In this document: in pieces, positions 1,702 through 29,269 of the stretch
Layout: each line of letters opens with the position of its first letter
Numbering within the stretch: the first letter of the stretch is position 1
DNA from: a virus
Virus record (IMG/VR): IMGVR_UViG_3300005356_000329
Location: 1-41,337 of that record
DNA length: 41,337 nucleotides
Direction: 5' to 3' (one strand)
Position numbers and translations under genes: made by a program
The notes under the pieces: model-generated
Seen by the model: the letters and a program-made list of their open reading frames with translations, nothing else
Told to the model about the DNA's origin: nothing
Database searches by the model: none

Positions 1702-2094
1702 CTAATCGCCGCCGACGCAAGTGGGACCGTTTTCCGCGGCGCCGACCATACCCTCCAACCATGCGCGGCGATGGCTCCAGCGGCCGACTGAGGTGCCGAC
1801 GACCTGTCCGGTCGGGAACTCGATCACGAGGTCGCCGTCGGGCAAGCCATCGTCGAGCCCGCGCGCGGTAATCGGACGCACGCCGGCGGCACTGAATAGC
1901 CAGCCGATCACTGGCGATGCGAATATCGAGTGAGTATCCGGCTGATCACCTTCCCCAGGCTCAATAAGGAGGTCGAGCACGCTCGTCCCTGGGATGGCGG
2001 GAAAAATGTCGGGCACACCACGCTGCGGTTTGCCCTCACCGCGATACCAGAAGCCGTACATCGCGCTCCAGATCGATGGTCGCAGCCCAGGCAT
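1702..2094 (-). CDS. Hypothetical protein, last gene of the leftward accessory operon
   Basis: This 130-aa protein has no motif I recognise. I chose the ATG at 2094 because it overlaps the stop of the upstream YozE-like gene as TGATG, typical translational coupling; an in-frame ATG lies 15 nt further upstream (2109). The sequence is fairly hydrophobic and rich in Gly, Trp and Pro. It includes MYGFWYRGEGKPQRGVPDIF near the start and GRWSHRRAWLEGM near the end. There is no signal peptide and no long hydrophobic helix. Position between the repressor operon and attL suggests a gene expressed in the lysogen. Function unknown. Confidence 0.6.
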   Translation of the reverse strand: MPGLRPSIWSAMYGFWYRGEGKPQRGVPDIFPAIPGTSVLDLLIEPGEGDQPDTHSIFASPVIGWLFSAAGVRPITARGLDDGLPDGDLVIEFPTGQVVGTSVGRWSHRRAWLEGMVGAAENGPTCVGGD

Positions 2095-2330
2095 CAGTAA
2101 CAGGACCAATCAAGCTCGGCATCTTCGAGCGCTACGTGCATCTCGGGATCGGCCTGGACGCCGTTCAGCCGAGCCGAAACAGCTTGGAAGTCGCCTTCCT
2201 TGGGGAACCCAGGATCGGTGGCAGCGGCGCGCGCGAGTTCCCCGATGGCGTCGGTGCGCTTCTTTTGGTCGAGCAGCCAAGCGCCGAACGGAGGGCGCGG
2301 TTTGTGGTAGCGATCATGGGCGTCTGGCAT
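2094..2330 (-). CDS. YozE-like SAM-fold small protein
   Basis: This 78-aa protein resembles the YozE_SAM_like family, small proteins of unknown function common in phages and bacteria. The matching part is PFGAWLLDQKKRTDAIGELA, then a D...FP segment, and an acidic, Trp-containing C-terminus (EDAELDWSCY). The assignment rests on this F..WL..Q....D.IG.LA..A..D..FP pattern. It overlaps the next leftward gene by TGATG. The gap to the upstream membrane-protein gene is 77 nt. Its role in the prophage is unknown. Confidence 0.65.
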   Translation of the reverse strand: MPDAHDRYHKPRPPFGAWLLDQKKRTDAIGELARAAATDPGFPKEGDFQAVSARLNGVQADPEMHVALEDAELDWSCY

Positions 2331-2407
2331 CGATGTTCTCCTGTAAACGGCGACTCGCCGAAGAGAACAAATCTAGAACTAAATCCAACACGCCAATAGG
2401 AAAATTC

Positions 2408-3493
2408 CTAGGCCTCGGGAGGCGGGTCGTTGTCGTTGCCTGGAAGAGCAAGAACGGGCGCAGGGCTAGGAGCCGAGAAAACCAGCTGGGGCACGATAGA
2501 CGCGATTTGGTCCATCGCTTGCGCGCTTTCAGGGTCGGGCGCCTCCTCATAAGGAAGGAATTTGAGCTCGACCGTCATTCCCCGCTCTATCCGAGCCATC
2601 AGCGACTTCAAAGAATACGTGACTGCATTCACCAGTTCATTATCGCGGCCAGGCCCTGCGCCAGGATTGACGAGCTGGGTCGCGTGAGCGGCGATCGCCG
2701 CCTCGATCGTTGTAGCTATTTTCGCATCAAATTGGGCGATCATGTCATCCAAAGCGCCACTATTGTCCGCACTAAGCCTTGCGGTTTCGGCGCGAATCTT
2801 TTTGATTTCCTCGACTTTCTTCCACTGGTCGAGTGACCATGACACCGCTGTTGAGATCAGCGCGATGACCGGAGCCGTCGCGATGAGAAACACAATGGGG
2901 TTGCTGGAAGAAACTTCGCCGAGTCCGATTGGCGCATCGCCGCCCGTCGCTAGCTCGGCGAAAGGGCGCACGATCCGCTTGATCTCATTCAGTTCGGCGA
3001 TCCAGCCAGCAAATTCATTATCAAAGATGGTCCGTGGAATGCGGAAACCGATCTGCGCCTCCCCGGGGACGACCTCATCGCCTGCAATACCCAGTTTCGT
3101 CATCGCACTGACAAGCTGGTGAAGCTGCTCTAGGTAACTTGCCCGACGATCGCGCAAGTCACTCAGGATGTCGCGAGCGACCGTCGGCGTCATGGCGTTA
3201 TCCGTTATCGCCTGGGCGATCTGGATAGGCATACCAGGGCCGAAATAGGGGATGGCACCAAGGGCCTCCCCGTAAGCCGCGAAGGCTGGATCGCGCGCTA
3301 GCGTAAGTTGCCCGATCGCGTTCCGGAGCTCGATCTGGTGATTTGCGACTTGCGTTTGAAAGTCCGGGTTACCGGGGCTACCTGCCAGGTTTCCCAGTGC
3401 GTCGGTCAGTTGATTGAGGATACCCTGGATACCAAGGTTCTTCTCCTCCAAACGAAGTAACTCCGCGGCACGCCTCAGCCGACCTGTATCCAC
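2408..3493 (-). CDS. Predicted membrane-anchored protein with coiled-coil segments (unknown function)
   Basis: This 361-aa protein starts at GTG 3493 with a GGGGAG ribosome-binding site inside the end of the upstream lipoprotein gene. Residues 1-200 are mostly helical and soluble. One hydrophobic segment (NPIVFLIATAPVIALISTAVSW, split here as NPIVFLIATAPVIAL and ISTAVSW) lies near residues 201-222. A charged, coiled-coil-like stretch (KKVEEIKKIRAETARLSAD) follows, and the tail is rich in Pro, Ala and acidic residues. No catalytic motif is visible. Only 3 nt separate it from the lipoprotein gene, so the pair probably acts together at the envelope. Superinfection exclusion or defence is a guess from position, not homology. 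Confidence 0.75.
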   Translation of the reverse strand: MDTGRLRRAAELLRLEEKNLGIQGILNQLTDALGNLAGSPGNPDFQTQVANHQIELRNAIGQLTLARDPAFAAYGEALGAIPYFGPGMPIQIAQAITDNAMTPTVARDILSDLRDRRASYLEQLHQLVSAMTKLGIAGDEVVPGEAQIGFRIPRTIFDNEFAGWIAELNEIKRIVRPFAELATGGDAPIGLGEVSSSNPIVFLIATAPVIALISTAVSWSLDQWKKVEEIKKIRAETARLSADNSGALDDMIAQFDAKIATTIEAAIAAHATQLVNPGAGPGRDNELVNAVTYSLKSLMARIERGMTVELKFLPYEEAPDPESAQAMDQIASIVPQLVFSAPSPAPVLALPGNDNDPPPEA

Positions 3494-3496
3494 CCC

Positions 3497-3904
3497 TCAC
3501 TCCCCTAAGCTCATCTCGTCGCGGCATCGCACGTGACCGAGGCTCGCGCCCCTAAAATCGCCACCAGATTGGTCGAGTTTAGCCAGGTCGACGATGCGAA
3601 CATCGGTCGTAGCGCCAACCAACTGTTTCTCGCCAAGCAGCTGACAGACATACCGCGCTAGTCCGACGCGGCTCGTCCCGTCGCTGTCTACTCCGATTTG
3701 CCAAGTGACGCCCTCGCCCCCGTTGAACGTAAGATCGCGGATCTTCGGCTCGGCGAGCAGCTGCTTCTTCATGGCCGCGATCGCGGCCGGCTCAAAGTCA
3801 GTCGATGGCGCGGCTGCCGCCGCCTGCGCGTTGCTGGCGACGACCGTTGGCGCGTTTGAGCACGCGGTCAGCAAGATCGCCAAGGCAAGACATAGAAGGC
3901 GCAT
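3497..3904 (-). CDS. Predicted lipoprotein
   Basis: This 135-aa protein has a short N-terminal signal (MRLLCLALAILLTAC) with lipobox LTAC and Cys15 as the lipidation site, followed by a flexible Ala/Ser/Thr linker. The mature domain (about residues 38-135) contains TFNGGEGVTWQIGVDSDGTS and two Cys residues (YVCQLL and VRCRDE) that could form a disulfide. I recognise no family. It lies between the repressor and the membrane-protein gene, all leftward, so it should be made in the lysogen. An alternative role is a surface-modifying phage lipoprotein. Confidence 0.75.
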   Translation of the reverse strand: MRLLCLALAILLTACSNAPTVVASNAQAAAAAPSTDFEPAAIAAMKKQLLAEPKIRDLTFNGGEGVTWQIGVDSDGTSRVGLARYVCQLLGEKQLVGATTDVRIVDLAKLDQSGGDFRGASLGHVRCRDEMSLGE

Positions 3905-3913
3905 CGGCGCTCC

Positions 3914-4603
3914 CTAGAGCTTCGCCAACATCCGCGCATGGATGCGGGCAATGGGTTGAACCTCGCCGCCCTGTAGGTCGGCGGCGGTGATGAAAGCTTC
4001 ACCGAGCTGCTCGGCCGCGGCAAGGCGCTCCGGCGCGGGGCGGTTACTGTAGCGTGCGACGAACGGCCCCCCCTGCCCACGGAACAGGCAAACCCACCCC
4101 TCCTCCGGTCCCGCGCCTGAGCCGGCCACGATGTCCGAGCAGATGACCACGTCACCCTCAGCCAGGCCGATGGCGTCGTAATCGGAGGGAAGCTCCGTCA
4201 GCCAGAGGTCGGTCGCGCGCATAAGGCGGCGATTGAGCCAGTCGCGTCGAATCGGGATGGTCTCAATGCGATTGCCCTTGCTGCTGTCGGTGATCAATCG
4301 CAGGTCGTATTGGGGGATGTTGACCCACGCGGCATCGTCGGCGTCGACGACCGGATCGGCCATCGGTCCAATTCCTTCGACCAGCCAACGGGCACTCACC
4401 TTCAAAGCGTCAGCCAGTGAGAACAATCTTTCGGACCCGCAAAACCGTTCGCCGTGCCAATAGCCGGCCATCGACTGCTTCTTAATTCCCGCTAAACGCC
4501 CGATTTCCGCGCTTTCCAAGCCGAGCTCGGCCGCGCGCTCGCGAATGCGGCGCCCGAACGCATCCGGCGCTTGACGGTCCAATTCTCCATCCTTATGGTC
4601 CAT
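3914..4603 (-). CDS. Lysogeny repressor (HTH plus degenerate S24-like domain)
   Basis: This 229-aa protein, counted from ATG 4603, would hold the prophage silent by binding operators at the early promoter. Residues about 15-80 form a helix-turn-helix of the Cro/cI type (RIRERAAELG...GRLAGIKKQSMAGYWHGE...LADALKVSARWL). The C-terminal part resembles a LexA/cI S24 fold (LTELPSDYDAIGLAEGDVVI). A Ser lies where the nucleophile would be, but the usual V-K-R lysine site reads VARY, so self-cleavage looks unlikely. The start at 4603 lies inside the 4598-4613 operator. An in-frame ATG at 4636 would add 11 residues but would overlap the ner start region. Divergence from ner supports the assignment. Confidence 0.85.
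   Translation of the reverse strand: MDHKDGELDRQAPDAFGRRIRERAAELGLESAEIGRLAGIKKQSMAGYWHGERFCGSERLFSLADALKVSARWLVEGIGPMADPVVDADDAAWVNIPQYDLRLITDSSKGNRIETIPIRRDWLNRRLMRATDLWLTELPSDYDAIGLAEGDVVICSDIVAGSGAGPEEGWVCLFRGQGGPFVARYSNRPAPERLAAAEQLGEAFITAADLQGGEVQPIARIHARMLAKL
4571..4599 (+). promoter_or_regulatory. Probable early promoter (Pe) driving ner and the transposition genes
   Basis: TTGACG (4571-4576) and TATGGT (4594-4599) are separated by 17 bp, placing the start near 4606. The next gene, ner, has an AAGGAT Shine-Dalgarno 7 nt before ATG 4635. The dyad operator at 4598-4613 covers the end of the -10 element and the start site, as expected for a repressed promoter. Inferred from sequence only. 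Confidence 0.6.
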
Positions 4604-4613
4604 TTTATTGGAC
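4598..4613. promoter_or_regulatory. Operator 1: GTCCA-N6-TGGAC
   Basis: GTCCATTTTATTGGAC is a perfect 5-bp inverted repeat with a 6-nt AT-rich spacer. It overlaps the early promoter start site and the repressor start codon. A second copy with identical arms and spacer length lies at 4835-4850, and a half-site GTCCA at 4577-4581. Likely bound by the repressor or by Ner. Confidence 0.65.
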
Positions 4614-4634
4614 TCAACGGCTAAGGATTTGGCC

Positions 4635-4901
4635 ATGCTAGCTCAGGGCCTCCATCGGGAGGACATCAAGGCGGTGCTGCGCAAGCGGTACGGGTCGGTT
4701 CGCGCGTGGGCGCACAGCCGCAACCTGAAGCCCCAGGCGGTCGCCGACTTCATGCGCGGTCGCGCGAGCCAGCACGTCGCTGACGAGATCGAAGCTGAGC
4801 TTCAAGCGGTCGATCACAATGATGCTGCCCCCGAGTCCATTAAGTTGGACAATAGCGGCGCTTCATCGGACGCGCACCGTCTAATTGCGGGGGCGCGCTA
4901 G
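4635..4901 (+). CDS. ner: Ner-like HTH transcriptional regulator
   Basis: This 88-aa DNA-binding protein matches the Ner/Nlp family: LHREDIKAVLRKRYGSVRAW, then SRNLKPQAVADFMRGR as the recognition region. In Mu, Ner turns down the early and repressor promoters after infection. I chose ATG 4635 because AAGGAT sits 7 nt upstream and the start falls after the predicted early transcript start. A start at 4608 would lie within the operator. The C-terminal third (after about residue 60) is not conserved with Ner as I know it, and its DNA carries a second operator copy at 4835-4850. Confidence 0.85.
   Translation: MLAQGLHREDIKAVLRKRYGSVRAWAHSRNLKPQAVADFMRGRASQHVADEIEAELQAVDHNDAAPESIKLDNSGASSDAHRLIAGAR
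4835..4850. promoter_or_regulatory. Operator 2: GTCCA-N6-TGGAC
   Basis: GTCCATTAAGTTGGAC has the same arms and 6-nt spacer as operator 1, 237 bp downstream, inside the 3' part of ner and 54 nt before the ParB-like gene. The arms are identical, which suggests a second binding site for the same regulator. No convincing promoter is visible at it. Confidence 0.55.
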
Positions 4902-4903
4902 AC

Positions 4904-5854
4904 ATGGCGACCGCACCTGCAAACGACTTCGCCGATCCGATCGTCGCCGGCGAGATCATCATCGTCGATCCCCGGCGGGTTCGACAGGGCGAACGCCTGC
5001 GCGCCGTCGATCCGGTTTGGGCGGAGGCGCTCGGCGCCGCCATCGAACGCGATGGGCAGATAACGCCGATCGACGTCTGCCCGATCTACGACGATCCTGA
5101 CTACGATTGGGAACTCGCCGGTCCTGGCGGACACCGCCTACAGGGCGCGCTCATCCGCGAGCACAACGGGATCGAAGCGAGGATCGTTTCCAGCGACCGC
5201 GACGTCCAGCGGCGCCGAGAAGCTGCGGAGAATCTATTCCGCCGCGCCAACGATCCGATGGAGCGTGCAGCGGCGATCGCCGAGCTGGTTCGCATCTCGA
5301 AACAGCGCGCCGGCGTCGACCCGCAGAAAGACGGCCGCGCGGTGTCCGCAGCGGTGCGTTGGCAGAAAGCGGTCAAGACCGAGGCAAATGATGCAAACGT
5401 CACGATGACGGTTGCATATGGCTTCACCGCCGACGTCGCAGCTGAGCTGGGGCTGTCAGCGAGTACGATCGAGCGCGATCTTCTGCTCTATCGCCGCCTC
5501 GCGCCGTCGCTCCTCGCGCGGCTTCGGGACGCGAAACACCCGATCGCGAAGAATGCGGGCCAGCTCCGCGCGCTGGCCAAGCTTGAGGACGACGCCCAGC
5601 TAAAGGCGGTCGAGAACCTCACCCGGCACGCGAACAAACTCTCCAGTTTCTATGGCGCCAAAGCGATCGCGACCGTCACAGAAGCGCTTGCGATCGGGCA
5701 AGCCGGAACGAAGGCCGCCGACCCCGAGGCAAAGCGCCTCTCCACCTTCCTAGGCACGTTTCAGCGCATGGGCCTCGCCGAGAAGAAGGGCGCCCTCGCC
5801 CATCTGGCGGGAATGCTGCCGGCTGGCTTCACCTTGGTCGAGGCGAGCAAGTGA
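4904..5854 (+). CDS. ParB/Srx-fold nuclease-like protein
   Basis: This 316-aa protein begins with a ParB-like N-terminal region. IIIVDPRRVRQGERLRAVD is followed by ...ALGAAIERDGQITPIDV and WELAGPGGHRLQGAL, the usual (I/V)...R...L..SI...G...PI.V and G.HR..A pattern. The middle carries an HTH (ADVAAELGLSASTIERDLLL, about 176-196), and a helical C-terminus follows. Similar ParB-domain proteins occur early in many Mu-like phages of alphaproteobacteria. The DNA target and any nuclease activity are unknown. ATG 4904 lies directly after the ner stop. It heads the chain of overlapping early genes. Confidence 0.8.
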   Translation: MATAPANDFADPIVAGEIIIVDPRRVRQGERLRAVDPVWAEALGAAIERDGQITPIDVCPIYDDPDYDWELAGPGGHRLQGALIREHNGIEARIVSSDRDVQRRREAAENLFRRANDPMERAAAIAELVRISKQRAGVDPQKDGRAVSAAVRWQKAVKTEANDANVTMTVAYGFTADVAAELGLSASTIERDLLLYRRLAPSLLARLRDAKHPIAKNAGQLRALAKLEDDAQLKAVENLTRHANKLSSFYGAKAIATVTEALAIGQAGTKAADPEAKRLSTFLGTFQRMGLAEKKGALAHLAGMLPAGFTLVEASK

Positions 5855-5970
5855 TGTTCGCCCGCCTCCTTGGGGTTCGTGGACCTCTTACCCTCCGCAA
5901 CTGGATCGAAGTCGCCGTGCTGATCGGCATGACGGCGATCGCGATCCTCATCCTGGGGCTGCGCCGATGA
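5854..5970 (+). CDS. Small single-pass membrane protein
   Basis: This 38-aa protein starts with an ATG that shares its A with the TGA of the ParB-like gene and ends overlapping the next ATG (GATGA). Residues about 18-35 (EVAVLIGMTAIAILILGL) form one hydrophobic helix, followed by Arg-Arg. The overlaps at both ends suggest it is translated. Function unknown. Confidence 0.6.
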   Translation: MFARLLGVRGPLTLRNWIEVAVLIGMTAIAILILGLRR

Positions 5971-6476
5971 CGACACCCATCCAGCAGAAAATCTTCGACT
6001 ACGTGCGCGATTGCACCGCCGACGCCGGATATTGCCCGACGCTCAAGCAAATCGGCGATCAGTTCGGGGTCACTCCGCAGGCCGTGAGCCGGCACGTCGA
6101 CAAGCTGGTCACCCGCGGCCTGTTGGAGCGTGAATCCGCGCTCGGCCTGCGCAAGCTGCGGGTTGCGAACGTGCCCGACGTCCGCAAGGTCGGCAGCGAG
6201 GCGATCCTCGCCGAACTCGCCCGGCGCGGCATGACGTTCGGTGCGCTCGACAGCGGCACCCACAAGTCCTTCTCTCGCCCGGCAGCCAGTTGCGCCGCGG
6301 ATAGTTGCGGGTGCGAGGTCGAGCCGGGCCGGTTGTTCTGCCTGACGCATTGGCGCGCGCTCCCGTTCGATCTCCGCGGGGAAATCCTTGCCGCGCACCG
6401 GCGCCGCGATCTCGAAGCCTATCAGGCGGCGGTTAGCCGGGCCCGTGACATCGTCGATGGCGCGAGGGCGGCATGA
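5967..6476 (+). CDS. LexA-type winged-helix DNA-binding protein
   Basis: This 169-aa protein has an N-terminal region like the LexA DNA-binding domain: QQKIFDYVRDCTADAGYCPT, then LKQIGDQFGVTPQAVSRHVDKLVTRGLLE (residues about 25-52). There is no S24 peptidase part. Residues about 105-130 contain four Cys and a His (CAADSCGCEV...FCLTHW), a possible metal-binding knuckle. The C-terminal 40 residues are helical and Arg/Ala-rich. It probably regulates phage or host promoters. Its ATG overlaps the previous stop and its stop overlaps the next ATG. Confidence 0.75.
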   Translation: MTTPIQQKIFDYVRDCTADAGYCPTLKQIGDQFGVTPQAVSRHVDKLVTRGLLERESALGLRKLRVANVPDVRKVGSEAILAELARRGMTFGALDSGTHKSFSRPAASCAADSCGCEVEPGRLFCLTHWRALPFDLRGEILAAHRRRDLEAYQAAVSRARDIVDGARAA

Positions 6477-6721
6477 GCAAGCGCCCCAACGACGAAGCGC
6501 ACGGCATGAGCCAGCGCGAGCAGGCGATCATGGACCTCGCCGAGGCGGGCATGACGACAGCCGCGATTGCCGAGGAGCTCGGCATCAAGGCCGGCTACGT
6601 CCGCAAGGTCTACTCGATGTATTCGAGCGACGGCGACCACACCGCGTTCTGCATCATGGCGCGGCAAGGCTGCGCGGCGATGACAGCCGCGATCGCCGCG
6701 ACCGGCCGGAGCTACGCATGA
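6473..6721 (+). CDS. Small HTH protein
   Basis: This 82-aa protein carries a helix-turn-helix of sigma-70 region 4/resolvase style (MSQREQAIMDLAEAGMTT, then AAIAEELGIKAGYVRKVYSMY; about residues 12-48). A hydrophobic tail contains two Cys. Start and stop overlap the neighbouring genes as ATGA. It is probably a minor DNA-binding protein of the early region; target unknown. Confidence 0.7.
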   Translation: MSKRPNDEAHGMSQREQAIMDLAEAGMTTAAIAEELGIKAGYVRKVYSMYSSDGDHTAFCIMARQGCAAMTAAIAATGRSYA

Positions 6722-6960
6722 TGGCCGGCATGGCAGCCCGCGCCGAGCAGCTGCGCAAGCACCGCGTCGAATTCGAGCGCGCTTGCCTGGACAACGTCTC
6801 ACTCGACGAGGCCCGCCTGCGTATCGCTCGCGAAACCTACACCGCAGCTGAGCGGCGCTTGGCCGAGCGCCAAGCGGCGACTGCTCGCTGCGGCACTCAG
6901 GCCGATCAAATCGGGCGCCGCCCGCGCTGGTTCACCGAAACGAGGGGAGATTGGGAGTGA
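6718..6960 (+). CDS. Hypothetical early protein
   Basis: This 80-aa helical, highly charged protein starts MMAGMAARAEQLRKHRVEFE. There are two adjacent ATG codons, 6718 overlapping the upstream TGA and 6721 as an alternative. The sequence has coiled-coil character (RLRIARETYTAAERRLAERQ). No family recognised. Confidence 0.55.
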   Translation: MMAGMAARAEQLRKHRVEFERACLDNVSLDEARLRIARETYTAAERRLAERQAATARCGTQADQIGRRPRWFTETRGDWE

Positions 6961-7130
6961 AGATTACGTCGATCGGCTATTTTGGCCGAACCACAAACCT
7001 GCGCGTACCGCTGCAGCCGCTCGACACCGAGCAGCTCGCGGCCGCGATCGCGGCGCTGCCGGCGCGCAAACCACTTGGCCGTCCGACTGCCGAGGTCGTG
7101 TCGATCGAGGAGGCACGCCGTGGTGCGTAA
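6957..7130 (+). CDS. Small hypothetical protein
   Basis: This 57-aa frame starts at GTG 6957, overlapping the previous TGA (GTGA), with GGGAG upstream. It begins MKITSIGYFGRTTNLRVPLQ and ends ...VVSIEEARRGA. The next gene's GTG start and its GAGGAGG ribosome site lie within its last codons. Chained overlap and high third-position GC support translation. Function unknown. Confidence 0.55.
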   Translation: MKITSIGYFGRTTNLRVPLQPLDTEQLAAAIAALPARKPLGRPTAEVVSIEEARRGA

Positions 7131-7662
7131 CCTCTCTCCCGAGCAGCTGCGCATCAATCGCGTGGTCGGCACGATGCTGAGCGACCCGTCGAAGGTGTGG
7201 AAAGCGGCGGATTTGGCGCGGGCTACCAGTCTCACCCTGGGCTCGGTCAACGAGATCGTGCGCTCGCTCCGTTACAAGGGCCAGATCGCGTTCGACCGCA
7301 TCCAGCTTTCGCCCTCCATGATTGAGCGGCCATCGGTCGCGCCCGTAGTGAAGCAGGAGCCGGTCCCTGCGGCCGCTCAGCCCTCGATCGCCGAACAGGT
7401 CCATGCGGAGGCGCTGGCGATCGGCGCGAACCGCGCCGCGGCACGCAGCTCCGGCAGTGTTCACGGCCCCGCGGCTATCCGGTCGACCAAGCTGATCGAG
7501 CAACTTCAGGGAGCATTGGTCGCCACTCCTAGCGACCTCGTCGAAACGACCAGGCGCGCCTGGCCTGAGCTTTGGGCGCGATGCGTCGCGCGGTCGCGTG
7601 CCGAGCAGGCTTCACCGGGTAGCGTGCTGATTGCAGCGATCGAGCGGGGGCTTGAGCAGTGA
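7120..7662 (+). CDS. Hypothetical early protein with winged-helix-like N-terminus
   Basis: Starting at GTG 7120 (or the adjacent GTG 7123), with GAGGAGG 7 nt upstream, this encodes about 180 aa. Residues about 8-50 look like a winged helix (INRVVGTMLSDPSKVWKAAD, LARATSLTLGSVNEIVRSLR). The middle is a Pro/Ala/Ser linker. The C-terminal 60 residues are helical (TPSDLVETTRRAWPELWARC). It probably binds DNA; no named family recognised. Confidence 0.65.
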   Translation: MVRNLSPEQLRINRVVGTMLSDPSKVWKAADLARATSLTLGSVNEIVRSLRYKGQIAFDRIQLSPSMIERPSVAPVVKQEPVPAAAQPSIAEQVHAEALAIGANRAAARSSGSVHGPAAIRSTKLIEQLQGALVATPSDLVETTRRAWPELWARCVARSRAEQASPGSVLIAAIERGLEQ

Positions 7663-7823
7663 CGATGCTGTTTACCGGTACCCCCGATGTGCGGCTCGAC
7701 GAGTTCGATCGCGACGAGTGGCGCGAGGTCACTCGCCTCGTTCGGCCGGACTGGTCCGACGAGGACTTCGATCGCGCCTGGACCGAATTTCTCGACGCTA
7801 AGCGCCGCGGGGCGATGCACTGA
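7659..7823 (+). CDS. Small acidic hypothetical protein
   Basis: This 54-aa protein starts at GTG 7659, overlapping the upstream TGA; ATG 7665 is an alternative. It is rich in Asp, Glu, Arg and Trp (DEFDRDEWREVTRLVRPDWS). Its TGA overlaps the next ATG (TGATG). No family recognised. Confidence 0.55.
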   Translation: MTMLFTGTPDVRLDEFDRDEWREVTRLVRPDWSDEDFDRAWTEFLDAKRRGAMH

Positions 7824-8284
7824 TGGCGAAGCGCCGCCCTTCCCTCGACGCGAACCAGCTTGGGTTCACCTTCGACGCGCCGGTCCAGCCGACGCGCGAG
7901 GCGGACCTGGCGGGGCTCGATCGTATGGTCGCGGCGGCCGTTGCCCAGGCACTCAAAGGCGATGAACGCGACCGTTTTGAGATCGCCGCGGCGATCTCTC
8001 GCCTGCTGAATGAAGACGTCACCAAGTTCATGCTCGACGCCTACGCGTCCGAAGCGCGCGAGGATCACAACATCCCGGCGCACCGCTTCCTCGCGCTCGT
8101 CGCGGTGACCGATCGCTACGACCTGTTCGACGCGTTGGCCCGCAAGATCGGCGCCGCGCTGCTGGTCGGCGAGGAAATCGTCACCGCGGAACTCGGCCAC
8201 ATCGAACGCCAGATGGCTGCGCTCCGCGCTCGTCAGAAACAAATCAAGGGCCGCGCGCCCATCATCCGGGGAGGCAAGCGTTGA
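7823..8284 (+). CDS. Hypothetical early protein preceding the transposase
   Basis: This 153-aa mostly helical protein includes FEIAAAISRLLNEDVTKFML and AHRFLALVAVTDRYDLFDAL. The C-terminus is basic (RARQKQIKGRAPIIRGGKR). Its position directly before and overlapping the transposase gene recalls conserved small genes next to muA in other transposable phages. Function unknown. Confidence 0.65.
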   Translation: MAKRRPSLDANQLGFTFDAPVQPTREADLAGLDRMVAAAVAQALKGDERDRFEIAAAISRLLNEDVTKFMLDAYASEAREDHNIPAHRFLALVAVTDRYDLFDALARKIGAALLVGEEIVTAELGHIERQMAALRARQKQIKGRAPIIRGGKR

Positions 8285-10251
8285 AAGCTGGCGGGGGGAA
8301 AGAGTGGTTTACCGCGGCAGAGCTCGCCGAGCTCGGGTTGCCCGGCCTGCCGACCACCAAGCGCAAGATGAACGAGCGCGCGTCTGCCGACATGTGGGCG
8401 ATGCGTGTCGGCAACGACGGTCAACCACTGGCCCGTGCCAGCGGTCGGCGCGGCGGCGGTCTGGAATATCATTGGTCGGTAGTGCCTGCCGCTGCGCGAG
8501 CGGCGCTCGCGGCGCGCGCGATCGAAACCTTGGCCGATGTCTCACCTCAACCGGAAACGCGAGCGGCGGCGAAATGGCGCCACTTTGAGCGGCTAACCGC
8601 GAAGGCGAAGGCAGAAGCGCATCGTCGGGCGACGGCGATCGCGATGATCGAGAATTATGTCGAGATCGGACGCCTGACCAAGTCGGCCGCGGTTGCGAAC
8701 ACCGCTGCAAGGATGAAGGTCGGCGCGGCCACCTTGTGGAACTGGCTCAAGCTCGTCGAGGGCGTCGCTGCAGCCGACAGGTTGGCCTATTTGGCACCGG
8801 GCCACGCCGGTGGCGGTGCCGAGGCGGAGATCGACCCCAGCGCCCTCAAGCTGCTCATGTCGGACTATCTGCGCCCCGAGCAGCCGACGTTCTCGTCATG
8901 CTATTATCGCCTGCTGAAGGGCTATGCCGAACCCAACGGCATCACGCTCCCCTGCGAGCGCACGCTTCGCCGACGCCTCGATAAGCAACTCGACCGCCGC
9001 GTCGTCACGGCGCGTCGCGAGGGCGCTGAAGCCCTGCGGCGGTCTCTGCCGTCGCAGCGGCGCTCGGTCGAAGCGCTCCAGGCCATGGAGCTGGTCAACA
9101 TCGACGGACACAAATGGGATGTCTTCGTCGAGTGGCCGGACGGGAAGATCGAACGCCCGCTGATGGTCGCGATCCAGGACGTCTACAGCCGCAAGATGCT
9201 GGCCTGGTCGATCGGCCGCACCGAGAGCGCGGTAGAGACGCGCCTCGCCTTCGCGCAGCTGTTCGCGAACTACGGCATCCCGGCCGCCTGCCTGATGGAC
9301 AACGGGCGCGCGTTCGCCAGCAAGTGGATCACCGGCGGCGCCACCAGCCGATTCCGCTTTAAAATCCGCGAGGAGGAGCCACTGGGCATCCTCACCGCGC
9401 TCGGCATCAAGATCCACTGGGCGACGCCGTATCGTGGCCAGTCGAAGCCGATCGAGCGCGCGTTTCGCGACCTGTGCGACAGCGTCGCGCGCCACCCCGC
9501 CCTGGCGGGCGCCTACACCGGTAACGGCGTCGACAAGAAGCCAGAGAATTACGGCAGCAAGGCCATCCCGATCGACCGATTCCGCGAGATCGTCGCCGAT
9601 GGCATCGCAGCCCATAATGCCCGAGCGAACCGCCGCACCGAAATGGGCGCCGGCGCGCACAGCTTCGACCAGGTCTTCGCCGCTTCATATGCGGTCGCGC
9701 CGATAGGCCGCGCGACGCCCGAGCAGCTGCGCTTGGCATTGCTCGCGGCCGACGACCGCCCCACCGACAAGCGGACCGGCGTGATCACGCTCCACGGCAA
9801 CCAATATTGGGCGGAGGAGCTGTCGCAGGTCGCTGGAGATCGCGTCACCATCCGCTTCAACCCCGACGATCTCCATGCGCCGGTTCACGTCTACACCCGC
9901 GATGGCCGATATCTCTGCGCCGCGCCGGCGTTCCAATCGAGCGGCTTCAGCGATGTCGAAGCCGCCAAGGTCCGCGCGCGCATCGAGAAGCGCCACAAGA
10001 GCGCCGTCCGCGAGCTGATCGACGCCGAACAACTGCTGTCAGCCGCTCAGGTCGCCGACATGTTGCAGCGGACCGCCACCGACCCGCTCGACGCGCCGAC
10101 CGTCGTCCGGCCCGTTCGTCACCGTGGCCAGACCGCGGCCGCGCTCAAGCCCCTGATCCAGGCGGTGCCAATCGCCCGCGAAGAAGCTGCCCAGGATGCC
10201 CGCATCGACCGCATGGCAGGCGGAATGCGGCGCCTGCGGCCTGTTGAGTAG
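8281..10251 (+). CDS. muA: Mu-type DDE transposase A
   Basis: This 656-aa protein (MuA has 663) binds the prophage ends and performs strand transfer during replicative transposition. The N-terminus (EWFTAAELAELGLPGLPTTK) matches the winged-helix MuA domain; DNA-binding helices follow. The catalytic triad is visible as D275 (NIDGHKWD), D340 (LMDNGRAF) and E392 (SKPIERAFRD). The C-terminal part carries the domain that in Mu contacts MuB. The start is TTG 8281 with GGGGAGG 6 nt upstream, overlapping the previous stop. The stop is followed 17 nt later by muB. Confidence 0.95.
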   Translation: MKAGGGKEWFTAAELAELGLPGLPTTKRKMNERASADMWAMRVGNDGQPLARASGRRGGGLEYHWSVVPAAARAALAARAIETLADVSPQPETRAAAKWRHFERLTAKAKAEAHRRATAIAMIENYVEIGRLTKSAAVANTAARMKVGAATLWNWLKLVEGVAAADRLAYLAPGHAGGGAEAEIDPSALKLLMSDYLRPEQPTFSSCYYRLLKGYAEPNGITLPCERTLRRRLDKQLDRRVVTARREGAEALRRSLPSQRRSVEALQAMELVNIDGHKWDVFVEWPDGKIERPLMVAIQDVYSRKMLAWSIGRTESAVETRLAFAQLFANYGIPAACLMDNGRAFASKWITGGATSRFRFKIREEEPLGILTALGIKIHWATPYRGQSKPIERAFRDLCDSVARHPALAGAYTGNGVDKKPENYGSKAIPIDRFREIVADGIAAHNARANRRTEMGAGAHSFDQVFAASYAVAPIGRATPEQLRLALLAADDRPTDKRTGVITLHGNQYWAEELSQVAGDRVTIRFNPDDLHAPVHVYTRDGRYLCAAPAFQSSGFSDVEAAKVRARIEKRHKSAVRELIDAEQLLSAAQVADMLQRTATDPLDAPTVVRPVRHRGQTAAALKPLIQAVPIAREEAAQDARIDRMAGGMRRLRPVE

Positions 10252-10268
10252 GCAAGAGAGGAGCTCCC

Positions 10269-11246
10269 GTGAACACTCCCGATTCAGTCGCAATCGACGT
10301 CGAAGCCGAGCTGGAATGGCTCAAGGACTACAAGGCGAAAAAAGGTCTGAGCTGGACCCAGCTCGGCCAGCTATCGAACATCTCGCCGGGGTCGCTGAGC
10401 GCCCTCTACACGCCGAACTATCCGGGCAAGAAGGATAACCAGGCGAAGCGCATCTTCCAGTTTCGCCAGAAGGTCGAGAGCCAGGAACACCGCAAGCAAT
10501 TCGTGCTTGAGCGGCCGCGCTGGATCGAGACGCCGACTGCGCGACGTGTCCAATTCCTGCTGGAGGTCGCCCATATGGGGCGCATCACGGTTGGGGCGAT
10601 GGCGCCCGGCACCAGCAAGACGATGACAGCGGTCCACTACAAGGAAAGCATCGGCGATTCGGTGTTCCTGGTCACCATGCTTGAATCGACCTCGTCGACC
10701 GCGGGGATGGTGCGCCAAGTCATGCAGGTGATGGGCCTAGCGGTACGAGCGAGCTGGACGCAGCAGATGTCGGCGTTGGTCATCGACAACCTGAAGCACC
10801 GCAAATGCCTGCTGATCATCGACGAGGCCAATTTTCTGTCGCTCAACGCGCTGGAGGAGCTCCGCGGGTGGCACGATGCGACAGGCGTCGGCATCTGCCT
10901 GTTAGGCAATGAGGAACTCCTCCATAGACTCCGCGGGCGGGATAACAAAGACCGCCACGCCTATGCGCGATTGAACAGCCGCATCGCTAATAGCCACGTG
11001 GCCGACAGCCCTCGCCGGGACGATGTCGAGGCCTATCTCGATTACTACGATCTCATCGAACCCGACATGCGCGAGCCGCTGATCGAGCGCGGCCTCGCGC
11101 CAGGCCACGGCGGTCTGCGCGAGGTCCAGCAGATCCTGGAAGCGGCGAACATGCTGGCGATCGGCGACGACGAAGTTCTGTCGGCCAAGCATATCACCGA
11201 CGCAATCCGCTCGCGCGCGACCGTCCAGATGCGGAGGACGGCATGA
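10269..11246 (+). CDS. muB: MuB-like AAA+ target-capture ATPase
   Basis: This 325-aa protein partners the transposase, choosing target DNA and activating MuA in an ATP-dependent way. Residues 1-60 contain an HTH (LSWTQLGQLSNISPGSLSAL). A Walker A-like loop APGTSKT lies at about 112-118, and Walker B LLIIDEAN with D185/E186. The start is GTG 10269 after a GAGAGGAG ribosome site. The arrangement directly after muA is that of Mu. The P-loop is of the short MuB/TnsC kind rather than canonical GxxxxGKT. Confidence 0.92.
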   Translation: MNTPDSVAIDVEAELEWLKDYKAKKGLSWTQLGQLSNISPGSLSALYTPNYPGKKDNQAKRIFQFRQKVESQEHRKQFVLERPRWIETPTARRVQFLLEVAHMGRITVGAMAPGTSKTMTAVHYKESIGDSVFLVTMLESTSSTAGMVRQVMQVMGLAVRASWTQQMSALVIDNLKHRKCLLIIDEANFLSLNALEELRGWHDATGVGICLLGNEELLHRLRGRDNKDRHAYARLNSRIANSHVADSPRRDDVEAYLDYYDLIEPDMREPLIERGLAPGHGGLREVQQILEAANMLAIGDDEVLSAKHITDAIRSRATVQMRRTA

Positions 11247-11377
11247 CGTTACTCCGCTGGCTTAAGGCCGAGGCGGCGCGGCACGAGTTGCTGACCGCCG
11301 GCGCGGCGATCGCGTTCTGCGCATGGCTAGGTCTCAACCTGGATGCGATCGCCGCCGCGATCTCGCGGGTGCTGTGA
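11243..11377 (+). CDS. Small membrane protein
   Basis: This 44-aa protein overlaps the muB stop (ATGA) and the next ATG (TGATG). Residues about 15-43 (ELLTAGAAIAFCAWLGLNLD and the tail) are hydrophobic, likely one membrane helix or an amphipathic segment. Function unknown; one of three tiny membrane-type genes in the early region. Confidence 0.55.
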   Translation: MTLLRWLKAEAARHELLTAGAAIAFCAWLGLNLDAIAAAISRVL

Positions 11378-11790
11378 TGATGCAGGTTATCATCCGCGGG
11401 GAACGCCTGCCCTTTGAGTTGCTCGACGCGCTCTGCGCGACGATCGGCGCCGATATGGCGGTGCTACACGGCGATCGCGCGGCCGCGGCTGAGCCGTCGA
11501 TCGGGCAGATCGTCGCGGACGTCGCGTTCGAAACTGGCCTGGCGGAAGCGCGCATTCTCAGCCCCTGCCGCGAGCGTCCATTGTTCCGGGCGCGGGCCGC
11601 GATCTCGTACATCGCAAAAACGGTCACGAGCCTGAAGGGCACGGAGATCGGAGCGGCGATGGGCTTCCGCGATCACTCGACGATCGCCAACCAGCTCAGT
11701 GCAGCCCAGGTGATGCGCGCCGGATCGGACCCTGCCTTCAAGCGCCTGACCGATCGGCTGGTCGCCCGCTATCGGGAGCGCTGCGCATGA
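11377..11790 (+). CDS. DnaA domain IV-like DNA-binding protein
   Basis: This 137-aa protein ends in a region like the DNA-binding domain IV of the replication initiator DnaA: RARAAISYIAKTVTSLKGTE, IGAAMGFRDHSTIANQLSAA. RDHST lies at residues 98-102, the DnaA signature that reads the DnaA box. There is no AAA+ ATPase part. It may bind DnaA-box-like sites in the prophage or host origin, or recruit host replication proteins. Two adjacent ATG codons (11377, 11380) are possible starts. It sits between muB and gemA. Confidence 0.8.
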   Translation: MMQVIIRGERLPFELLDALCATIGADMAVLHGDRAAAAEPSIGQIVADVAFETGLAEARILSPCRERPLFRARAAISYIAKTVTSLKGTEIGAAMGFRDHSTIANQLSAAQVMRAGSDPAFKRLTDRLVARYRERCA

Positions 11791-12473
11791 GGGCTGCAGC
11801 TCGCCCAGCGTTGTTCGACGCCTCGACCCAGCACCGCCGCGCGCTGCTGGCCAAAGTCCATGTCGCCAAGAAAGTGCTCGGCCTCGACGACGATACCTAC
11901 CGCGCAGTGCTTCTGCGCGTCGCCGGGGAGACCAGCGCGGCCAAGTGCTCGGACGCCCAGCTGGTCGCCCTGGTCAAGGAATTCGAAGCCAAGGGGTTCA
12001 CCGCCAAGGCGAAGAAGCCGTCGCCGCGACCGGCCGACCACCCGCTCGCGCTGAAGGCTCGCGCTATGTGGATTTCGCTCCACCAGCTCGGCGTCGTCGA
12101 CAATCCGAGTGAGCCGGCCCTGGAAGCCTTCGCCCAGCGCCAGCTCGGCGTCGCCAAGCTGCAATGGGCGAACCAGCGCGAGGGCAACAAGCTGATCGAG
12201 GCACTGAAGGCGATGGCCGAGCGCGCCGGCTGGTCGCAAGAACTATCCGGCGTCGCGCCAGCTATGCGCGTGCTGGTGCTGCGTCGGCGCCTGGTCGACG
12301 CACTGCTGGCTAAACTGAAGGCTGCCGACGTGGTCCCGGCCGACTGGGATATCCGCCGGGCGGCGTGGCACCTGGGCGGCGTAGAAGTCCGCAACGTCGC
12401 GCTGTTGGAGCATGGCGACATCGACGTGGTGGCCAAAACGTTCGGCAGAAAATTGCGCGAGGCGCTGCCGTGA
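11787..12473 (+). CDS. gemA: GemA-like early regulatory protein (Mu gp16 family)
   Basis: This 228-aa protein matches the GemA/gp16 family (DUF1018). The match covers HRRALLAKVHVAKKVLGLDD, DTYRAVLLRVAGETSAAKCS, and an internal ALKARAMWISLHQLGVVDN. In Mu, GemA modulates host gene expression and DNA supercoiling; the mechanism is poorly defined. The C-terminal 60 residues are probably an extension. ATG 11787 overlaps the previous TGA, and the stop overlaps the next GTG. Confidence 0.88.
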   Translation: MRAAARPALFDASTQHRRALLAKVHVAKKVLGLDDDTYRAVLLRVAGETSAAKCSDAQLVALVKEFEAKGFTAKAKKPSPRPADHPLALKARAMWISLHQLGVVDNPSEPALEAFAQRQLGVAKLQWANQREGNKLIEALKAMAERAGWSQELSGVAPAMRVLVLRRRLVDALLAKLKAADVVPADWDIRRAAWHLGGVEVRNVALLEHGDIDVVAKTFGRKLREALP

Positions 12474-12562
12474 TCCGTTGGCTGATGCACCCCGAGCGGT
12501 CCGACATCGCCGCTATAATCGCCATGCTGGCGATCGCGGGGCTCATGGCGGCGTTCGCCTGA
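12470..12562 (+). CDS. Tiny membrane peptide
   Basis: This 30-aa frame starts with GTG overlapping the gemA stop and ends with TGA overlapping the activator ATG. Residues 12-30 (DIAAIIAMLAIAGLMAAFA) form one hydrophobic helix. The overlap at both ends is the main reason to think it is translated. Function unknown. Confidence 0.45.
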   Translation: MIRWLMHPERSDIAAIIAMLAIAGLMAAFA

Positions 12563-12942
12563 TGAACGCGCAGCGTCCCATATCCGCCGCGGCCGAGCAA
12601 TTGGAGGAGCTCGCCCAGGTCATCGGCCAAGTGAACCTGTCGACCCTGTGCAAGGTGTTTGGCGGCACCAAAATCTATATTCCTGCCAAGATGTCGCACA
12701 ACCATCCCATCGCCGAGGCGATCGGGTTGAAGGCCGCTGGGCTCATGGCCGATCACTATTTCGGCACCTCGATCGACTTCCCCAAAGCCCATCTGCGCCG
12801 ACAGCGCGTGATCGAGCTCGCGAAGTCGGGCAAGATGACCGTTGCGGATGCGGCCCGAGCCTGCGACTATACCGAGCGTCGGGTGTATCAGCTGCTCGCG
12901 GCTGAAAAGGACGACGACAACCAGCTCGACCTGTTCCGCTGA
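12562..12942 (+). CDS. mor: Mor/C-family activator of late transcription
   Basis: This 126-aa protein (Mu Mor is 129 aa) belongs to the Mor transcription activator family. It has the dimerisation part (LEELAQVIGQVNLSTLCKVF GGTKIYIPAK, written here in two pieces), and a C-terminal HTH (RRQRVIELAKSGKMTVADAA, then RACDYTERRVYQLL). In Mu, Mor and its relative C bind dyads upstream of weak promoters and recruit RNA polymerase. I see only this one family member, so it may do both jobs. A matching dyad starts 4 nt after its stop and again before the protease gene at 24495. Confidence 0.9.
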   Translation: MNAQRPISAAAEQLEELAQVIGQVNLSTLCKVFGGTKIYIPAKMSHNHPIAEAIGLKAAGLMADHYFGTSIDFPKAHLRRQRVIELAKSGKMTVADAARACDYTERRVYQLLAAEKDDDNQLDLFR

Positions 12943-12945
12943 TTT

Positions 12946-12997
12946 CCTGAAATTCTTCAGGTCAGCGTCGCCCCCCGACCTAGACCATAGCAGCCCC
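12946..12997 (+). promoter_or_regulatory. Late promoter 1 (Mor/C-type), leaderless start
   Basis: The dyad CCTGAAATTCTTCAGG (12946-12961, arms CCTGAA/TTCAGG) is followed by a CCATAG -10-like element (12985-12990). In Mu, Mor binds a dyad at -51 to -36. With that geometry the start is 12997, one base before the lysozyme ATG at 12998. There is no room for a Shine-Dalgarno. The same 17-nt block, the same 52-nt distance and an almost identical start region recur at 24495-24560. Confidence 0.75.
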
Positions 12998-13648
12998 ATG
13001 GGTGGGGAACCGGACATCGTCGTCGTCGCTTACACCAAGCGATTCGATGCGGCCTGCGATCGGTTGATCCCGATCGAGGGCGGCTATGTCAACAAGCGCG
13101 CCGATCCGGGCGGTGCTACCAAATACGGCATCTCGTTGCGATTTCTGCTGGGCGAAGGCCTAAAGGACGTCGACCTCGACGGCCACGGCGACTTCGACCT
13201 GGACATGGACGGCGATATCGATGTCGACGACATCAAGGCGCTGACGCCGGCCGACGCAAAATCACTCTATTATCGCTGTTTCTGGAAGCCGTTGCTCTGT
13301 GAGCGTTGGCCGGCGCCGATCGGCGAAGCGATGTTCGACCAGGGCGTCAACGGCGGACTGACGGCAGCAAAGAAGCTGCTCCAGATTGCCATCAATTCTT
13401 GTCTCGCGCGGCGTGCCGGGTTCGCTGGCCTGCCGACTACTCTCGTCGTTGACGGCGGCCTGGGGGACAAGACGGCCAACGCGTTCGCTTGGGTGCTTAC
13501 CCATCCTGGCGACGGAATGCCGGCGTTGATCGCCGCCTATCGCGCGAGTGCAGAGGCGCGTTACCGCGACCTGGTCGCCCGCAATCCTAAGCTCGGCGAA
13601 TTCCTCGGTGGCTGGGTCAAACGTGCTCGCAACTTGGGGGTCTCATGA
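12998..13648 (+). CDS. Phage muramidase, glycosyl hydrolase 108 family
   Basis: This 216-aa lysozyme-type endolysin cleaves the peptidoglycan glycan chain at lysis. The GH108 signature IEGGYVNKRADPGGATKYG carries catalytic Glu27. The C-terminal half (about 140-216) fits the peptidoglycan-binding part of the family. An acidic insert (about 57-80) reads DLDGHGDFDLDMDGDIDVDD, like a double EF-hand/dockerin calcium loop, and interrupts the lysozyme core. No signal peptide is seen, so a holin is needed. I chose ATG 12998 from the promoter geometry and because the same start sequence follows the second late promoter. Confidence 0.88.
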   Translation: MGGEPDIVVVAYTKRFDAACDRLIPIEGGYVNKRADPGGATKYGISLRFLLGEGLKDVDLDGHGDFDLDMDGDIDVDDIKALTPADAKSLYYRCFWKPLLCERWPAPIGEAMFDQGVNGGLTAAKKLLQIAINSCLARRAGFAGLPTTLVVDGGLGDKTANAFAWVLTHPGDGMPALIAAYRASAEARYRDLVARNPKLGEFLGGWVKRARNLGVS

Positions 13649-14196
13649 ACTTGAAGCTGATTGGCTGGATCGCCGGGATCATTGCCGCGATCGGCGTTGC
13701 CTGGGGAGCGATCGCCATGATCGGCGACGCGATCGAGAACATCCACGATGGCAAGGCCGCCAAGCAATGCGAGCTCGGCGCGCGGACGCCCTCCGGTGCG
13801 GTCGACGCCTGCAGCAGTGCGGTCAAAACGCTGATCCAGGAAGCGCGCCAGGCGCGCGAGTGCGACGCGGCGCTCGCGGTATATCGGGTCGCCGCGCCGA
13901 CATCGGCCGCTCTGGGTCAGTCCGCCTTCGCGATCAAGATGAGCTGCAGCGAACCGGTGAAGACGCTGGTGGCGCGAGCAGACGCTGACGCAGCCAACTT
14001 GGCCGACGCAAAGGCGCAGCTCGCCAACGCCGCCCAATCCACGGCTGACGCCGTGAAACGCGCGGAGTCGCGCGCTCTGAACACCGCCAATCGAAAGGCC
14101 GCCGACGATGCCGTCATTTCCGCCCAGCCGCGCACTGCCGACGGCAACGTTACTTGCGATGCTGACTGCCTGCGCCACCTCTCAGGCGCCCCTTAA
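13645..14196 (+). CDS. Rz-like inner-membrane spanin subunit
   Basis: This 183-aa protein has one N-terminal membrane helix (LIGWIAGIIAAIGVAWGAIA, about 5-24). A long periplasmic coiled coil rich in Ala, Asp and Lys follows (about 115-165). The Cys-containing tail CDADCLRHLSGAP is typical of Rz. With the Rz1 lipoprotein encoded inside its 3' end in the +1 frame, it should form the spanin that fuses inner and outer membranes at lysis. ATG overlaps the lysozyme stop. Confidence 0.8.
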   Translation: MNLKLIGWIAGIIAAIGVAWGAIAMIGDAIENIHDGKAAKQCELGARTPSGAVDACSSAVKTLIQEARQARECDAALAVYRVAAPTSAALGQSAFAIKMSCSEPVKTLVARADADAANLADAKAQLANAAQSTADAVKRAESRALNTANRKAADDAVISAQPRTADGNVTCDADCLRHLSGAP

Positions 14197-14410
14197 GCCC
14201 GCCACAGACCCGATCGTCACGACCCGCACGATCACGCGTACCGTGTGCCCGGCGGAGGTGACTGCCGCCAGTCCCGACCCGGTGCCTGCCTATGTCGGCG
14301 CGGCGATCGTCGTCCCGCCTGTCTATCTCGCGTGGGTCGCCGCCCACTTGCGGCGCGAGCGCCTGCTCGATGCGCGCGCCGCCGACGCCCGGAGCCAGTG
14401 TCCGCAATGA
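14108..14410 (+). CDS. Rz1-like outer-membrane spanin lipoprotein (overlapping gene)
   Basis: This 100-aa protein starts within the Rz-like gene, +1 relative to it, and runs 214 nt past its end. The first 22 residues end in lipobox LTAC with Cys22. Pro- and Thr-rich sequence follows, and a hydrophobic stretch (YVGAAIVVPPVYLAWVAA) near residues 62-79 is unusual for Rz1. The nested Rz/Rz1 layout and lipobox are the evidence. The stop overlaps the next ATG (ATGA). Confidence 0.75.
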   Translation: MPSFPPSRALPTATLLAMLTACATSQAPLKPATDPIVTTRTITRTVCPAEVTAASPDPVPAYVGAAIVVPPVYLAWVAAHLRRERLLDARAADARSQCPQ

Positions 14411-29033: not shown

Positions 29034-29269
29034 CGCTGGCCGCGTTCATCCTCGTCCTTTGGTTCGTTGTCAGCGGCGTATCGGCGCTCGCCTGGATATT
29101 CGAGTGGTGGCCGCAACCGGATTCCAGCCGCGTTGCATTGACGATCATGATGCCGCTCGTCGTGCTGGCCTGCGTTCTCTTGGCCATTTGGCTGGTGTTC
29201 ATCGCGATCCGCGAGGCCGGTATCGACTTGCGCTCTTGGGTCGGCGACCGGGTGGGAGACATCTCATGA
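29030..29269 (+). CDS. Small two-pass membrane protein
   Basis: This 79-aa protein starts at GTG 29030, overlapping the upstream TGA. It has two hydrophobic helices (LAAFILVLWFVVSGVSALAW and IMMPLVVLACVLLAIWLVFI) and a polar tail. Holin-like by shape, but it lies in the tail region, not the lysis cassette. Function unknown; a second holin or antiholin is possible. Confidence 0.6.
   Translation: MTLAAFILVLWFVVSGVSALAWIFEWWPQPDSSRVALTIMMPLVVLACVLLAIWLVFIAIREAGIDLRSWVGDRVGDIS

Follow-up and report, generated by a model that had tools for sequence, protein, structure and literature searches.

A repressor-linked lipoprotein, a swap slot and a LexA-boxed YozE unit lie side by side in a Mu-like prophage

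Four genes beyond the repressor

The window, that is, the whole 41,337-base virus record IMGVR_UViG_3300005356_000329, contains a whole Mu-like prophage in which four leftward open reading frames (1702-2109, 2094-2330, 2408-3493 and 3497-3904) follow the leftward repressor gene at 3914-4636. All have coding-type base usage, in keeping with the original prediction, which had further read the four as one accessory operon of the lysogen. Instead, three modules lie side by side in the region: an exported protein linked to the repressor, a swap slot and an SOS (DNA damage response) unit. A LexA box, GAACAAATCTAGAAC, stands at 2365-2379, directly before the YozE-like gene, and divides what had been taken as a single unit; its conservation in eight of eight related loci argues against, for YozE and its partner, the proposal that all four genes are on while the phage is dormant. 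The features of the region are the following.

3914-4636, minus strand: repressor, with a helix-turn-helix and an S24-like C-terminal region lacking the catalytic Ser and Lys (phrog_4, E 2e-13; alignment A7)
3497-3904, minus strand: lipoprotein of 135 residues, phrog_7191 family, with two invariant Cys in its exported domain (family matches, alignment A4, structure model)
2408-3496: swap slot, from the lipoprotein stop codon to the LexA-box region, replaced in the nearest relative (blastn)
2408-3493, minus strand: slot gene, 361 residues (family searches, FlgK-like profile match, base composition)
2365-2379: alphaproteobacterial LexA box, GAAC-N7-GAAC (motif search; conservation in the related loci)
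2094-2330, minus strand: YozE-like protein of 78 residues, first gene of the SOS unit (PF06855, above cut-off)
1702-2094, minus strand: partner protein of 130 residues, translationally coupled to YozE, second gene of the SOS unit (TGATG overlap)

Most of the earlier gene calls were borne out. The product of 3497-3904 has a clear lipobox (LTAC/S), its stop codon lies 3 nt ahead of the start of the 361-residue gene, and the 78-residue protein passes the Pfam cut-off for YozE_SAM_like (26.2 bits against 25; the L002/L003 copy scores 27.0). The overlap between the YozE gene and the last gene is likewise real, but the latter most likely starts with the ATG at 2094 rather than with a TTG at 2109, because stop and start overlap in TGATG and homology to the nearest relative, L003, begins there, at residue 6 of the TTG reading.

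A swap slot between the lipoprotein gene and the LexA box

A blastn comparison of the window with L003, whose MuA is 91% identical to the window MuA, gives two blocks, at 1301-2411 (79%) and 3497-14553 (86%). Nothing is aligned between them, and the unaligned stretch is exactly the 361-residue gene. In its place L003 encodes a 304-residue protein with three hydrophobic segments, for which blastp found no relation to the 361-residue protein. The guanine-plus-cytosine (GC) content of the 361-residue gene, 58.0%, is the lowest of the 39 phage genes of at least 150 residues (mean 65.6%, standard deviation 2.2), and the slot gene of L003 stands at 58.9% against 65.7% for the rest of that locus. The original prediction of an accessory slot beyond the repressor thus agrees with a resident gene that looks foreign and is exchanged between close relatives. 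Weak relatives (23-24%) of the L003 slot protein occur in two Sphingomonadaceae genomes (L121:8560-9375 and L122:8605-9549), one of them adjoining a flagellar cluster.

The comparison was extended to loci in which YozE accompanies a related repressor (YozE is absent from L009 and L010). At the position of the slot they carry the following.

L051 (Sphingomonas sp. AOB5) and L081: none; a lipoprotein relative, then YozE
L008 (Sphingomonas sp. ERG5): a HigB/HigA-like pair on the other strand, with the lipoprotein absent
L007: a 173-residue membrane-anchored protein, and a DUF3800 gene on the other strand (E 2e-8)
L084: a 146-residue anchored protein and a transposase
L088: a 114-residue exported protein only

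Fixed flanks with unrelated alternative cassettes, as in a hotspot, are therefore found among the window, L003, L007, L008, L051, L081 and L084, and a search for other cargo in related prophages, suggested earlier, turned up a toxin-antitoxin pair and a DUF3800 gene, among others. The HigB/HigA-like pair matches phrog_3066 (E 1e-11) and, under its cut-off, TIGR02607 (E 8e-10); together with an 86-residue gene it occupies L008:4210-5232, on the strand opposite to the repressor.

The same loci dissolve the pairing of lipoprotein and 361-residue protein on which an envelope function had been founded. An obligate pair is ruled out by L051, L081 and L120, which have the lipoprotein but lack the 361-residue gene, and by L003, where the partner is unrelated.

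The 361-residue slot protein

The slot protein consists of a FlgK-D1-like helical region (about residues 17-130), an alpha/beta part, a hydrophobic segment at about 200-218 and a charged helical C-terminal part. The single membrane helix called earlier is well defined in the window copy, with a hydropathy of 2.29, whereas two relatives give borderline values (1.57 and 1.60). Four full-length members of the family were found (window, L089, L079 and L094), with 30-37% identity to the window copy over nearly the whole length. The L089 member belongs to a P2-like phage and adjoins its portal (phrog_68, E 1e-131) and terminase genes, on the portal side of the locus, and the contig stops 658 bases past it, before any gpA; that of L079 shares a 7.5-kb stretch, bounded by imperfect repeats beside a tRNA-Gln, with a tyrosine integrase; that of L094 occupies a chromosomal site behind a sigma-factor-like gene. 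A 60-residue C-terminal remnant with 52% identity, adjoining an ABC-F-like gene (L080:947-1126), suggests that the gene has been lost there. Between the portal and slot genes of L089, two LexA boxes (7359-7373 and 7685-7699) stand around a 147-residue CxxC-containing gene (L089:6906-7699).

The gene was found in none of 50,697 phage records (with the window copy, and again with the L079 copy) and in none of 72,556 plasmids. Single-sequence scans with the protein returned nothing from genome contigs or viral contigs, and two profiles of the family each recovered the same single locus, L089, from the viral contigs. With the threshold set at E 0.05, five genomes with related phages gave no match; a weak one at 0.06 was dropped. 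In three partly overlapping genome samples, matches at E 0.01 or better came from 9 of 397 genomes, of which two were accepted (G372, full length; G015, a 60-residue C-terminal piece) and seven weak ones (E 5e-4 to 9e-3) dropped; the class sample gave 1 match in 385, which is a FlgK gene, and the order sample 2 in 396, G372 again and G930. The family is small and seen mainly on mobile elements, and its product is probably membrane-associated. PADLOC, Pfam, NCBIfam and PHROGs hold nothing convincing or above cut-off for the protein. Its structure model is too poor to use (mean predicted local distance difference test score, pLDDT, of 56, two sequences), and Foldseek with that model found no PDB match at E 0.001 or better.

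Conceivably, the slot gene encodes an abortive-infection or envelope-damage effector complete in itself, or one half of such an effector, and no exclusion factor; it would stay silent until triggered by a phage protein and then harm the membrane. A single gene of foreign GC content on three kinds of mobile element, encoding a hydrophobic segment followed by a strongly charged helix, would suit this role, and many such systems are described for the P2 hotspot in passages of one report (PMC9122126). Library scans of the protein revealed no known effector domain, however, and the borderline hydrophobic segment in the relatives also speaks against an effector of this kind, which seems rather unlikely.

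The first part of the protein resembles the helical domain of FlgK, whose chains are the best PDB profile hits of the family (E 0.013 and 0.016). An hhalign comparison of residues 17-130 with 10 FlgK sequences (taken from 15 fetched loci, five being dropped when the start motif was not found) scored 45.9, with an E value of 1e-5 for one comparison, as against 15.8 +/- 2.6 (maximum 24.2) for 60 block shuffles and 19.5 for reversed FlgK. All four members nevertheless fall under the cut-off of Pfam FlgK_D1 (12.7-19.2 bits against 28.6), the resemblance is confined to part of the domain, and the family does not qualify as FlgK. It could be that such a region disturbs flagellum or pilus assembly and so blocks appendage-dependent phages. 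FlgK above cut-off is, however, found in 0 of 3 genomes with a 361-residue relative (G372, G930 and the G015 fragment; the window host is not among them) and in 0 of 11 in the genus of G372, as against 4 of 4 genomes having related phages but no accepted relative. Because the family-carrying genomes lack it, the FlgK-type module has probably been reused rather than aimed at host flagella, and an action on surface appendages is very improbable.

The repressor-linked lipoprotein

The lipoprotein belongs to phrog_7191 (E 8e-11), a family without known function, and lies directly behind the repressor in all five Sphingomonadales-type loci that have the family (window, L003, L051, L081 and L120); in Mannheimia phage PHL101 a relative stands two genes behind the CI repressor. 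Two Cys are invariant across the five sequences of alignment A4, and the anchor varies, being a lipobox in the window, L003, L081 and L120, a membrane helix in L051 and a cleavable-type signal in PHL101. Matches were found in 3 of the 169 Sphingomonadaceae genomes surveyed. The lipoprotein is, as far as sequence can tell, a conserved envelope part independent of the 361-residue gene, and its lipobox and position make it an envelope product, by predicted location, that is encoded in the lysogeny module, as in exclusion systems.

An exported neighbor is not peculiar to this family. Of 41 repressors from alphaproteobacterial Mu-like loci and loci related to these, 18 are followed within 60 nt by a gene of at least 100 residues (the other 23 were dropped, 13 having no candidate and 10 one too short or too far), and all 18 of these products have a hydrophobic segment near the start, compared with 115 of 451 background genes of 100-220 residues. 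The Fisher p of 6e-11 is nominal, the limits having been chosen after the list was viewed and the background genes held to a stricter coding-score limit. These phages seem to make a habit of coupling an exported protein to their repressor, which fits an envelope role during lysogeny.

The structure model of residues 41-135 is good (pLDDT about 84-96 by 10-residue blocks). Foldseek with this model found no match at E 0.001 or better, and a PDB profile search with the family reached only E 0.11. A second structural look gave a fold like that of an alpha-lytic-protease prodomain (4jm1; Z 9.2, 80 residues, root-mean-square deviation 2.6); alpha/beta arrangements of this kind are common and give no hint of function.

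The YozE unit and its LexA box

Three GAAC-N7-GAAC sites occur in the window, one before YozE and two in the following feature.

41243-41268: two overlapping LexA boxes before a host gene beginning near 41287; they support the motif from within the window

From its first residues, this host gene resembles lexA. Chance would give 1.16 such sites over the window, and three or more turned up in 14 of 100 shuffles, so the count by itself proves nothing and what matters is conservation. A box lies between the repressor unit and YozE in all eight related YozE loci, at 46-106 nt from the YozE start in seven of them, box and gene being parted by the transposase in L084; as a background, 762 kb of related loci contain 29 such sites. 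The motif corresponds to GTTCN7GTTC, listed as the Caulobacter SOS box in part of PMC9578287.

Eight further YozE loci were obtained by a protein search of phage and plasmid records, one place per record, and five of these have a box 52-55 nt upstream.

Box present: L123, L124, L125, L126 and L127 (L126 and L127 nearly identical)

In the P2-like loci L124 and L125 the YozE gene stands behind the portal gene, with one small gene between in L125. The partner protein had no family match in library searches, and in most relatives it is swapped for other small genes; the second genes at L008:3525-3761, L084:10674-10868 and L088:1635-1892 have a common PWR...VPxxI pattern, recognized by eye, and are unlike the 130-residue gene of the window and L003.

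The persistence of the box in diverged DNA also bears on the view that these small open reading frames are neutral baggage, drifting in and out between repressor and transposon end without a selected function. Short variable regions, mostly in the left arm, are indeed described for Mu-like phages in passages of PMC4378225. Yet reading frames are intact in the full-length relatives compared, gene order is conserved, and the 361-residue family keeps its four members recognizable over almost their full length. A lack of function for the region is improbable.

A repressor without self-cleavage residues

In alignment A7 the catalytic columns of the window repressor are occupied by Tyr and Ala, so its cleavage site is predicted to be dead. 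The repressors of L009 and L010 retain the S24 residues (GDSM, and Lys before R), in contrast to those of all eight YozE-linked loci, where the same columns hold Tyr or Phe and Ala or Gly. Over 41 repressors, the Ser/Lys dyad is present in 15 of 33 not linked to YozE and in none of the eight linked (Fisher p 0.018, a modest correlation, and YozE absence is uncertain where the locus stretch does not reach the left end). In three Asticcacaulis Mu-like loci (L014:4696-5020, L022:5323-5666 and L029:4384-4731) a LexA box lies at the start of a short gene running towards the repressor; its product has a CxxC-type zinc-ribbon look, and the repressors of these loci retain the S24 dyad.

Judged by the LexA box, YozE and its partner should be silent in the lysogen and switched on by DNA damage. 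A repressor unable to cut itself leaves the phage in need of another link to DNA damage, and because the window repressor lacks the self-cleavage residues, an SOS-induced antirepressor is the preferred reading for the YozE pair. The locus has the marks of Tum- and GfoA-type systems, namely a LexA box directly before the gene (eight of eight related and five of eight other YozE loci) and a partner repressor without the S24 dyad (eight of eight, alignment A7). Literature pairing YozE with phages, judged by title or abstract start, contained nothing on such a role.

Alternatively, SOS might induce the pair to help lytic growth or the takeover of the host, for instance in replicative transposition or DNA repair, with the repressor left untouched. 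LexA-boxed YozE-like genes on plasmids L126 and L127, in a stretch shown without phage genes, would fit helpers, as would a LexA-boxed YozE beside an integrase gene in L123, where no such repressor is seen. On the other side, the YozE module of Mu-like phages accompanies only repressors that lack the dyad (8 of 8), and the two P2-like loci with YozE beside the portal gene have it near the place where phage 186 carries its tum gene, which is LexA-controlled (PMC7708051). Helpers are a serious possibility, with a chance somewhat short of even.

The prophage and its ends

The prophage extends over the following feature.

1301-41217: complete Mu-like prophage, 39,917 bp (left end common to L003, target duplication, MuA and MuB families)

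A 5-bp target duplication, CCGCT, was read directly on both sides (1296-1300 and 41218-41222), and the left-end sequence TGTTAGGTGACACGTGG is seen again at the host junction of L003, so that defined ends and a short duplication accompany the MuA transposase (phrog_310, E 1e-155) and a MuB-like gene (phrog_296, E 2e-49). The insertion site is the 3' end of a host gene named moeA by Pfam. MuA is present in the window, L003, L007, L008, L009, L010 and L081; L051 has only its first 46 residues, at the contig end, and MuA was not found in the stretches examined for L084 and L088. At the opposite, right end of the prophage lies an accessory DNA methyltransferase gene (40180-41106; phrog_363, E 9e-51). 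A ParB-like gene (4904-5854) follows a Ner-like gene and has tblastn matches in most alphaproteobacterial MuA loci (relatives among L003-L048).

A three-module interpretation

The modules, their conservation, the LexA box, the missing residues and the exchange are observations, and from them we infer every function in the explanation that follows. In the immunity unit, the lipoprotein would be transcribed from the repressor promoter as well; its small disulfide-type domain would face the periplasm, where it most likely hampers incoming phage at the envelope, a form of superinfection exclusion. Related phages would carry one exchangeable cassette in the interval from the lipoprotein stop codon to the LexA-box region, and the 361-residue resident is most likely lysogen-expressed anti-phage cargo. 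YozE and its coupled second gene would be repressed by host LexA and released after DNA damage, and most likely yield an antirepressor that couples induction to the SOS response, as does Tum in phage 186, the reason being that the window repressor has lost its self-cleavage residues. Thus, the original expectation of lysogen expression would be narrowed to the first two genes after the repressor, the lipoprotein and the slot gene, which should both be expressed there.

Exclusion or defense by the lipoprotein and the slot gene is plausible from position and exchange and would be their most likely use, the SOS unit being the less expected part. None of the four genes was met elsewhere as a conserved structural or replication gene, which the original prediction had singled out as telling against it, and its statement that no known defense motif is present holds in PADLOC, where none of the four proteins has a match at E 1 or better.

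Several results weigh against this explanation. On the minus strand, no promoter or terminator dividing the three units was found; the defense libraries gave no match for any of the four genes; and no mobile element was seen at the L094 site. Some YozE relatives lie outside phages, the plasmid relatives L128, L129 and L130 have no LexA box, and the dyad is also missing from 18 of the 33 repressors not linked to YozE, so that YozE cannot be the only response to its loss. Taken whole, with the roles proposed for immunity unit, slot and SOS unit, the explanation has an even chance of being right. More doubtful is its strongest form, in which YozE and its partners would constitute a new LexA-controlled antirepressor class of Sphingomonadales Mu-like and P2-like phages, and the slot would hold a new FlgK-module family of 361-residue, membrane-associated anti-phage proteins.

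The YozE unit suggests how a window repressor with a dead cleavage site could still answer DNA damage, and, if this is true, YozE-type antirepressors let the repressor drop self-cleavage. The candidate SOS antirepressor family would be recognizable by a YozE domain together with a LexA box, possibly a new way to wake a prophage, and the slot would be a place in Mu-like phages to collect new anti-phage genes.

Comparison with known systems

Variable accessory genes, mostly in the left arm, are also a feature of the genomic-plasticity regions of Pseudomonas aeruginosa Mu-like phages (PMC4378225). Those regions center on anti-CRISPR loci, and a repressor-linked lipoprotein or a LexA-boxed YozE is not met in the passages of that source drawn on here.

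The slot is closer to the P2 old/tin locus and the other P2 and P4 hotspots, in which, according to passages of PMC9122126, core phage genes fix the site, many cassettes alternate and single-gene systems are common; the P2 antiviral hotspot is placed there between gpA and the portal gene gpQ. In the P2-like L089 the 361-residue relative lies on the portal side of that very locus. The present slot differs in that it belongs to a Mu-like phage, is bordered by the gene of a repressor-linked lipoprotein and by a LexA box, and has cassettes of about 1 kb, known from sequence alone.

The Ltp lipoproteins of Streptococcus thermophilus phages are likewise small lipoproteins of the lysogeny module, on the repressor strand, and part of PMC3952083 reports Ltp expression from the prophage. 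Here, in contrast, the host is Gram-negative, and the anchor among relatives is a lipobox, a signal peptide or a membrane helix. No Ltp name appears among the Pfam, PHROGs and NCBIfam matches of the lipoprotein, and no direct comparison with an Ltp sequence was made.

The tum gene lies near the right end of the phage 186 genome. It is LexA-controlled and occupies 28984-29538 of that record (PMC7708051), and in the Gifsy phages as in 186 a small LexA-controlled antirepressor links induction to DNA damage, as described in passages of PMC3121763. Tum of 186 and GfoA/GftA of Gifsy resemble the SOS unit in being small, directly LexA-controlled genes that lie beyond the immunity region and accompany a repressor for which self-cleavage is not the route of inactivation (PMC3121763, PMC7708051). 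The unit described here is distinguished from them by its YozE fold, two coupled genes, Mu-like setting and alphaproteobacterial box, with an antirepressor activity that is putative. Overall, phage cargo hotspots and LexA-controlled induction modules are known kinds of systems, of which the present region would be a variant.

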